Assembly: GCA_009746045.1 (NCBI GenBank)
Contig: RPFO01000079.1
Span: 1,885,844 to 1,949,843, forward strand
Source of the DNA: Mesostigma viride
Lineage: Eukaryota; Streptophyta; Mesostigmatophyceae; Mesostigmatales; Mesostigmataceae
DNA: 64,000 nt
Direction: 5' to 3'
Under the pieces are notes generated by a model. The model did not search any database and had not been told where the DNA came from. It worked only from the letters and a program-made list of their open reading frames with translations. Numbering within the stretch: the first letter of the stretch is position 1; the number at the start of each line of letters is the position of its first letter. This document shows, piece by piece, positions 154-11,230 of the stretch. The position numbers and the translations under genes are program-made.

Positions 154-3100
154 CCAAGTTGTTGGCGAGGGCAGCGTTGACGATGTTGATGAAGCGCTCG
201 TACGAGAAGTCACCATCACTCCCAAAGTCGACGCCCTGCAGCACGCATTTTTTTTTTTGCAAAGCAAGCCATGCGTAAACGAGGGCGAAATAACAGCATA
301 AGCAACTAGGTCTGACGTGAATCCAGAAGGATGACCCAGCCAGTCCAGGCGTACTATTTTTTGTTACTTATCTAAAAATCGATAGTAACTTTGACAGCCA
401 CTCTGCCTGACCATCATCATCACAAACTAGCTGGTGCAGAGCGGGTAGACTCGAGCAACCGCGGCCCCGCTCACTTAACCCCGACGTTCCACACGTCCCC
501 CCATTCAACACTTTTCCCCCACGTTCAACACAGTGCCTGCCCTCCCCCTCTACCCACCATTTTGCCACCAGCAACGCTGTGTATGCCACCATTCCCTGGG
601 CAACCTAGTTCCTAGCCTGTGTAACACCTTTACATATACGGGCATACTGGTACTACTGTACCTACATATACTGGGATACGGGCATACTGGTACTATGACT
701 ACATATACTGGCATACTGGTATACTGGTACTACTATACCTACACAACATCATAGGTGCAGAGGTGTCATGGCGCAGCCATAACCCCAGCAGGAAGAAGCG
801 CACAGTTATCTAAGTAGAAGGTTGAGCAGACTAATTCCCACTACCACGACAGCAGCACCGTGCCGCGGCAGCGTCATGTCGCACCCCTAGCAGGAAGAAG
901 CGCACGGCGTCAGCGCCGTACTTGTCGACCAGCTCCACAGGGTCCAGCACGTTGCCCAGCGACTTGCCCATCTTGAGGCCATCCTGTGACAGCAGGGAGT
1001 GGGGCAACATGCAGGGAAGTAGGACAATAGAGACCATCTGTCAAACCAACTACAAAGAAGTGACCATCTTGAGGTCGTGCTGGGTGTGTGCAGTGAGTGG
1101 GGCCGTGTGAGGGCAAGCTGGCAGCGATTAGGGCATCGATTGGGGCGGCGATTAGGGCAGTGATTGGGGCAGGGTTGGGACATGCGTGGCATCAGCAGCA
1201 GGCATGGCATTAGAGGCCATCCTGAAGCTGTCCAATGAGCGATCAGCGATGGGACTTGGCAGCACTAATATGCCAACACACAATGATGCGGGCAACACGC
1301 AGCAATGAGAGCGGCGTGACACGTCCAGTTTTATGAAGCGCTGTCTCTTGCGCGCAAAGTATCGGAAACCATCTGCGATGGTTCTTGGTTGGTTTGGTAC
1401 AAACCAAACTATTCCGTCCTTATTACCAACTACCATATCTCGTGCCCCATTCCTTGCAACCCATCTCCCGGGTATATGTAACAAGTAACCGATACGATAT
1501 TATAGCCAGCAGCTGTACCACTCTATGTAACAAGTAACCGATACAATATTGTAGTCAGCAGCTGTACCACTCTATGTAACAAGTAACCGATACGATATTA
1601 TAGTGAGCAGCTGTACCACTCTATGTAATAAGTGACCGATACGATATTATAGTCAGCAGCTGTACCACTCTATGTAATAAGTGACCGATACGATATTATA
1701 GTCAGCAGCTGTACCACTCTATGTAATAAGTGACCGATACGATATTATAGTCAGCAGCTGTACCACTCTATGTAACAAGTGACCGAAACGATATTATAGT
1801 CAGCAGCTGTACCACCCCTCGCAGGGCTATCTCTCGTCCCAAGAAAATTATACATTTCTCCTCTTCAAAATGAAGAGAAATCTGACAAGGCTCCGTCCTT
1901 AAAACGAGCACGGGAAACCGATATCGATAGGAATAGACAGGGCGCTGATTAGATGCAGATGCTGCGCTATTATCACTCCAGCATCAAGACAGTAGCATAT
2001 AGACAAGCAAGAAGGTAGTTCTGGCACCCGCGGCCACGGTGAGGAAGCGGTGACCCACCTTGGTGAGAAAACCGTGGCCGTAGACCTTCTTGGGAAGTGG
2101 CAGGCCCGCTGACATCAGCATGGCGGGCCAGTAGACCGCGTGGAACCGAAGGATGTCCTGGCAACGTCACGGAGCGGGGGGCAAGGGAGGTAGCATACGA
2201 AACAGGAACGGTGCTGGTGTGAAACTCAGGATAGCATGGCGATTATGGGGGACAGGAGAGATCGCATCTGAGATAGCACAAGACACACGCAAAGACATAC
2301 GGGAGCAAGGGAACATGATAACATTACACAATTATGCAGGATTTATGTCGTAAATAGGATGGGAACGAGCCGCTTAAAGGATGGGCGAGATCACGGAAAG
2401 GGCATGGGTAGCCAACACCAGGGACAGGCGGCGACTTGTTAGCATCGATTGCGTGAGCTTGGGACAGGCAAAGCATGTCGTGGCTGACCGCAGAAGGCCA
2501 CCCATGTGCCTAATCACGGCTTGAAACTTTTTTTTTCCACACCCCGTCCGCATAACCTTCCCCCCCTCCCACCACGCCAGCAACAGTAGCCAAGGTGCAT
2601 GCTGCAACAAAATAAGAACTGTCCACCGTCCCTTTGTCCCCTTGTCCCGATGTCCCGATGTCCCCTCGTCCCCTCGTCCCCTCGTCCCCTCGTCCCCTCG
2701 TCCCCTCGTCCCCTCGTCCCCTCGTCCCCTCGTCCCCTCGTCCCCTCGTCCCCTCGTCCCCTCGTCCCCTCGTCCCCTCGTCCCCTCGTCCCCTCGCCCC
2801 CTCGTCCCCTCGTCCCCTCGTCCCCTCGTCCCCTCGTCCCCTCATCCCCTCGTCCCCTCGTCCCCTCGCCCCCTCGCCCCCTCGCCCCCTCGTCCCCTCG
2901 TCCCCTCGCCCCCTTGCCCCCTCGCCCCCTCGCCCCAGAGGCCCCTCGCCCCCTCGTCCCCTCGTCCCCTCGCCCCCTCGTCCCCTCGCCCCCTCGCCCC
3001 CTCGCCCCCTCGCCCCCTCGCCCCCTCGCCCCCTCGCCCCCTCGCCCCTCGCCCCCTCGCCCCCTCGCCCCCTCGCCCCCTCGCCCCCTCGTCCCCTCGT

Positions 3101-11230: not shown

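Follow-up and report, generated by a model that had tools for sequence, protein, structure and literature searches.

Direct copies of exon ends behind the splice donors of a MetRS gene and other genes in the alga Mesostigma viride

Where the end of an exon and the splice donor that follows it recur within the next intron, two questions arise: what process placed the copies there, and how is the right donor chosen among near-identical ones? Both are raised by the organelle-type MetRS gene of M. viride, which occupies, on the minus strand, the first 11 kb of the 64,000-nucleotide stretch of nuclear DNA analysed here (the window). The original prediction had posed the second question and answered the first with introns that began by copying their upstream splice site. 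The genome is reported as 442 Mb in size with a mean intron length of 1142 bp, repeats covering 30.1% of its intron space (PMC6947507).

The translated minus strand matches a 587-residue protein, P0001 (jgi/Mesvir1/26840), whose label we take to point to M. viride, in keeping with its homologues in streptophyte plants and algae, and which carries the Pfam domain tRNA-synt_1g (1e-97). P0001 is a gene model, and its exact spliced matching to the minus strand defines eleven exons and ten introns, all of them GT-AG and all in phase 0 but for one in phase 2. On this strand exon 1 is found at 10859..11230, with the start codon at 11230, and is followed by exon 2 at 9721..9864, the 54-nt exon 3 at 8440..8493, exon 4 at 7468..7563, exon 5 at 6832..6933, exon 6 at 6523..6588, exon 7 with its phase 2 donor at 5870..5994, exon 8 at 4080..4173, exon 9 at 2059..2157, exon 10 at 885..983 and exon 11 at 152..235, whose 3' border lies at about 152-154, the gene continuing past the window. 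The protein is collinear with five homologues, chosen among 120 listed, at all ten internal junctions, an indication that the upstream donors yield the conserved protein. Two very long arrays, of 8 bp in intron 8 (2627-3655) and of 5 bp in intron 7 (4587-5159), are separate from the exon-end echoes described below.

The last 60 nt of each MetRS exon plus the first 12 nt of its intron were aligned to the downstream intron and compared with 200 dinucleotide shuffles of that intron. Introns 2, 3, 5, 7, 8 and 10 scored 18.5-33.5 against shuffle maxima of 11.0-13.0 (0/200 in each case), and these are the six introns in which recurrence had been predicted. Intron 4 holds a weak seventh echo (13.0 versus a shuffle maximum of 12.0, 0/200) that falls below threshold with an exon-only query. 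Introns 1, 6 and 9, which follow exons 1, 6 and 9, gave no exon-end echo in the same test; position 11230, with which the predicted region ends, is the start codon of an exon without an echo. Against the upstream intron, the other comparison that had been proposed, 0/10 exon ends beat all shuffles (lowest 2/200). With exon 4 included, echoes are found in 7/10 downstream introns, compared with a background of 158/1500 among random tiles (p=1.3e-5), MetRS having been picked beforehand by the original prediction.

Further controls gave few matches. Exon middles never beat all shuffles in the upstream intron (0/10), and exon starts did so once, by a 12-nt match to the intron-9 acceptor and exon 10 start at 1213..1224 on the minus strand (12.0 versus 11.5), which is the only acceptor-side signal in MetRS and gave no match in either multi-gene run. 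In the downstream direction, exon middles beat all shuffles in introns 3 and 5, the window taken there sharing bases with the echoed end. Exon starts did so in intron 3, for the same reason in a 54-nt exon, and in intron 7, with a 14-nt match (14.0 versus 13.0).

The copies are in direct orientation, lie near the donor and mostly include it; all positions that follow are on the minus strand. The exon 2 echo at 9654..9685 comprises 24 exon and 8 intron nucleotides, and its donor, 59 nt further down, does not differ from the true one; this copy had been called perfect, which is true of 26 nt but not of the whole match (30/32). Five copies of the exon 3 end (8409-8429, 8387-8407, 8369-8384, 8346-8366 and 8318-8344) make up a tandem array at 8318..8429 (TRF array 8323-8429). 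The exon 7 end is repeated four times at 5672..5853 (5811-5853, 5762-5804, 5713-5755 and 5672-5706, with GT kept in 3/4) within a TRF array of period 49 at 5672-5904, and three further decayed echoes follow at 5355..5631 (5598-5631, 5518-5554 and 5355-5378). The predicted range of one to five copies thus holds for exon 3 and is exceeded by exon 7, for which at least seven are recognisable. Exon 5 has two echoes at 6753..6808, one with the donor (6778-6808, 26/31) and one without it (6753-6769, 16/17). Exon 8 also has two, at 3941..4018, and the nearer, described in the original prediction as strongly decayed, retains 28/30 positions and an identical donor (3989-4018; the other, 3941-3958, matches at 16/18). 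The exon 10 echo at 782..803 matches at 22/23 with a one-base gap, GT being present if the gap is allowed, and the weak exon 4 echo at 7233..7258 matches at 21/26 with a 3-nt gap. Exons 3 and 7 are followed by true tandem arrays, and exons 2, 8 and 10 by a copy plus unrelated spacer.

The sample beyond MetRS consisted of one further window gene and eight genes from one 250-kb stretch of a single contig (C1) of the same assembly. Their models were predicted by a small script trained on MetRS, with regions modelled separately after a first long-chain prediction over the whole sample had merged everything and been dropped. Pfam supports a KEA-type antiporter (first exons alone given to Pfam), CEP76, a thioredoxin-like gene (TRX), HSP101/ClpB, ornithine carbamoyltransferase (OTC) and the window's ribosomal protein S9, and gave no support for coiled-coil gene A, fragment C or gene K, which we take to be POLA2-like. 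Excluded were region D (18 predicted exons with low scores, one of which had an exon-end match of 22.5 in the ab initio run), tiny predicted exons, transposon-like open frames and, in gene A, a weakly predicted exon near 118978 and those predicted inside its 69-bp array; for exon 9 of that gene the end was placed manually. A run on ab initio coding segments, which lacked splice models, served only as a guide, and no counts were taken from it because retroelement copies matched very highly in both directions. Alignment rows that were self-matches, with query and target overlapping, were ignored.

In a first run of 49 introns, the exon end was echoed downstream in 16/49 and the exon start upstream in 3/49, and controls were empty (exon end upstream 0/47, exon start downstream 0/48, exon middle 0/41). 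The final run, covering 60 introns of 10 genes with 100 shuffles each, gave 15/60 and 3/60, respectively, with 0/60 for the inverted exon end, 1/60 for the inverted start and 0/60 for the start in another intron of the gene. The exon end was found in another intron of the same gene in only 2/60 cases (one other intron tried for each), a count that speaks against an introner or other dispersed element. Small differences between runs reflect the random shuffles and their differing number (60, 30-40, 40 or 100). Echoes in 9/50 introns of the nine other genes suggest, from a small sample, that the phenomenon extends beyond MetRS.

Genes differ strongly in donor-side echoes: MetRS has 6/10, gene A 4/12, KEA 4/10 and OTC 1/7, and none are seen in C (2 introns), HSP101 (2), CEP76 (10), TRX (3), POLA2 (2) or S9 (2). 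MetRS exceeds the rest (6/10 versus 9/50, p=0.011), and MetRS, A and KEA together have echoes in 14/32 introns compared with 1/28 in the other seven genes (p=0.0003, a post hoc grouping). Intron repeat content was tested as the cause of these differences and found no support, the repeat rates of the well-sampled genes being similar (0.17, 0.44 and 0.20 for MetRS, A and KEA; 0.18 for CEP76 and 0.15 for OTC).

Several of these genes contain long arrays. In gene A, the exon 3 end begins a 69-bp minisatellite of ~4 kb, ~57 units by length (C1:3111454-3115385; L013:1454-5385), in which every unit carries a copy of the exon end with its donor and one frame is mostly open; exon 10 of the same gene has a 51-bp array. 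The S9 gene (window 53159-59030, plus strand, Pfam 3e-32), with no exon-end echo in its two introns, has in its first intron (53641-58397) a 20-bp array of ~203 copies (54319-58374). The window also contains, at ~15600-47000, a duplication with an offset of 19761, by which repeats at 18390, 19692, 20360 and 22355 recur at 38151, 39453, 40121 and 42116 and coding-like segments are repeated as well.

Local duplication is common in this genome, and claims about exon ends must be set against that background: random 72-nt tiles have a local match (score of at least 13 within 1 kb) in 158/1500 cases in a 200-kb sample and in 65/800 in the rest of the window, with 95 and 77 low-complexity tiles skipped, respectively. 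A profile of 30-nt tiles gave 16/58 for the last 30 nt of the exon before the donor and then 0/55, 0/45 and 0/27 moving into the exon, rates of 0.11-0.16 in the intron near the donor and 0.12-0.19 near the acceptor, and 3/58, 0/54, 0/44 and 1/29 in the exon after the acceptor. The profile indicates duplications at both intron ends, but exons entered mainly at the donor, as if duplication could pass the donor border and were halted at the acceptor. For the 30 nt that open the next exon, the rate falls below that of the last 90 intron nt (3/58 versus 27/174 tiles, p=0.043), and the last 30 exon nt exceed the first 90 intron nt (16/58 versus 25/174, p=0.029), an excess that is not significant without MetRS (11/48 versus 19/144, p=0.11). 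In a separate run with 30-40 shuffles, exon tiles at least 120 nt from the donor gave one match (1/101). When 19 introns were aligned with up to 90 exon nt, the longest exon part of an echo was 41 nt. The best copy starts no more than 200 nt from the donor in 16/17 introns with a position, the exception being KEA exon 4 (+500), and sampled introns with donor-near copies range from 243 to 5045 nt in length.

The difference between the two borders is significant in the full sample (15/60 versus 3/60, Fisher p=0.0039; discordant introns 15 versus 3, p=0.0075) and rests in part on MetRS, the gene picked by the original prediction. Without it, donor and acceptor counts are 9/50 and 3/50 (p=0.12, not significant), 11/48 and 3/48 in the tile version (p=0.040), 10/39 and 3/39 in the first run (p=0.065) and 5/34 and 2/34 among Pfam-supported genes (p=0.43). 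AG is intact in two of the three acceptor-side copies (gene A exon 5 and KEA exon 7).

Most copies retain a GT, and many have a donor of the true one's strength. GT is kept in 11/15 first copies and in 16/20 of all copies extending as far as the border. Over positions +1 to +6, identity with the true donor is 0.75 for copy donors, compared with 0.92 for the exon part, a shortfall that may reflect selection against competing donors or only local-alignment bias. Among 14 introns followed (gene A exon 3 represented by its copy at +138; MetRS exon 4, KEA exons 4 and 7 and gene C exon 2 omitted), some copy donor scores at least as high as the true donor in 8/14 when scored with a weight matrix derived from the same set of genes, and use of the nearest GT-bearing copy would cause a frameshift or stop in 12/14. 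The nearest copy gives an in-frame, stop-free insert at MetRS exon 8 and gene A exon 3. The idea of copies surviving by virtue of being in frame found no support, shifts being a multiple of three in 7/15 (p=0.20). The question of how the right donor is chosen is therefore real, and sharper for these data: if the copies indeed go unused, position, not local sequence, would have to decide.

We give about an even chance to the reading that the echoes are ordinary short tandem duplications, silent when they span a donor and mostly removed by selection when they span an acceptor. The echoes would be everyday direct duplications, with shifts of 28 to ~230 nt (mostly <130), in a genome whose introns abound in them. 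A duplication across a donor would place a second donor further down the pre-mRNA, and if the spliceosome keeps the upstream, first-made one, the protein would be unchanged and the extra copy could rest silently in the intron or expand into a minisatellite. A duplication across an acceptor would place a second acceptor upstream of the true one, where it would likely be used first and add sequence to the mRNA, and most such alleles would be lost by selection. What is observed are the copies themselves, in direct orientation on the donor side, and the donors they carry; use of the upstream donors in RNA, precedence of the first site and the part played by selection are inferences. Neutral duplication combined with such precedence is the best reading of the direction of the copies, their donor side, the acceptor deficit and their silence, and it leaves unexplained the three genes with nearly all the echoes and the short reach into the exon. 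Neutral tolerance alone predicts neither an excess over intron tiles nor differences between genes, yet three genes hold nearly all the echoes at similar intron repeat rates.

Exon ends at donors may themselves be a mutational target, through something linked to transcription or splicing such as a break or template switch at the border, for which the odds seem clearly poorer than even. Several counts favour such a duplication bias at exon ends: their rate lies above that of the adjoining intron, MetRS stands out from the other genes, and exon reach is at most 41 nt, with 0/55 in the tile 31-60 nt from the donor, shorter by our estimate than random placement of 50-130 nt units predicts. Against it, the excess loses significance without MetRS, and intron tiles elsewhere duplicate at similar rates (0.11-0.19). 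Concentration of 14/15 echoes in three of ten genes, and the frequency of local copies in non-coding tiles, might instead mean that chance alone is at work, with MetRS merely an outlier that was singled out in a genome full of repeats. We consider this rather unlikely, since the bias towards the downstream intron persists when MetRS is set aside, whether the comparison is with the upstream intron by exon-only queries (10/39 versus 0/38, p=0.001), with inverted matches (9/50 versus 0/50, p=0.003) or with another intron (9/50 versus 1/50, p=0.016).

The kept GTs, the sometimes unchanged whole donors, the two in-frame, stop-free inserts and the contrast between genes would also suit copies that function as decoy or alternative donors tuning the splicing of these genes. 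This is improbable given that multiples of three are not over-represented among the shifts, that conservation is on average lower in the copy donors than in the exon part and that CEP76 has ten introns without any echo. Least credible of all is that the introns originated when AGGT-bearing exon sequence was tandemly duplicated (the Rogers model), an idea favoured by the directly repeated, AG|GT-containing exon ends within introns. That model expects the second AGGT at the acceptor end, where 0/60 exon ends score at least 11 against the last 60 intron nt; the copies instead lie near the donor, in short and long introns alike, and the claim that these introns began by copying is not supported. 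The accompanying proposal fared better, that short direct duplications span the exon-intron border, carry the donor and can seed minisatellites: donor-seeded arrays follow two exons of MetRS (3 and 7) and two of gene A (3 and 10), and the remaining echoes are single copies with spacer, so that seeding describes the echoes in part. The original interpretation as a whole is partly supported.

Returning to neutral duplication with precedence of the first site, we put forward, as less likely than not, the stronger rule that in this alga the 5'-most of several splice-site copies prevails at either end of an intron, including over identical donors flanked by the same exon sequence, the reverse of the intron-proximal preference in mammalian test genes. 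Were this so, donor-spanning duplications would be free and acceptor-spanning ones would not, introns would lengthen from the 5' side, and each echo would amount to a natural experiment on splice-site competition whose outcome is known. How one of several identical donors is chosen has long been asked, mostly with built test genes; many natural duplicated donors in one genome, combined with a conserved protein, would make the rule directly readable from counts and RNA reads. The rule would also offer a simple directional route for intron lengthening and minisatellite seeding, distinct from intron birth.

Among the titles and abstracts listed by the literature searches, none reports donor-side echoes, from which we do not claim absence from print. 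In mammalian test genes with duplicated 5' splice sites, the intron-proximal copy is favoured. The arrangement in Mesostigma is similar, with near-identical donors in tandem before one acceptor, but here the protein requires the intron-distal, first-transcribed donor. The four donor-seeded arrays of MetRS and gene A resemble minisatellites arising from unique sequence in being ordinary tandem arrays, and differ from other seeded minisatellites in starting from the end of a coding exon with its donor, which makes a splice site part of the repeat. In the ATP2A1 case, as presented by Hellsten et al., the exon segment that was duplicated turns into a new intron bounded by two AGGT (PMC3443670). 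Short tandem duplication, AGGT-bearing sequence and a choice between splice-site copies are common to that case and ours, but the Mesostigma copies lie behind the donor of an existing intron and have no counterpart at the acceptor end (0/60). In potato RdRp, a duplication across an intron-exon boundary is described as making a new intron (PMC4974935), a precedent for acceptor-side duplications not being silent. There, too, splice signals are copied along with a border that the duplication crosses, but it is a single acceptor-side event that changed splicing, whereas those in Mesostigma are many, on the donor side and apparently silent.
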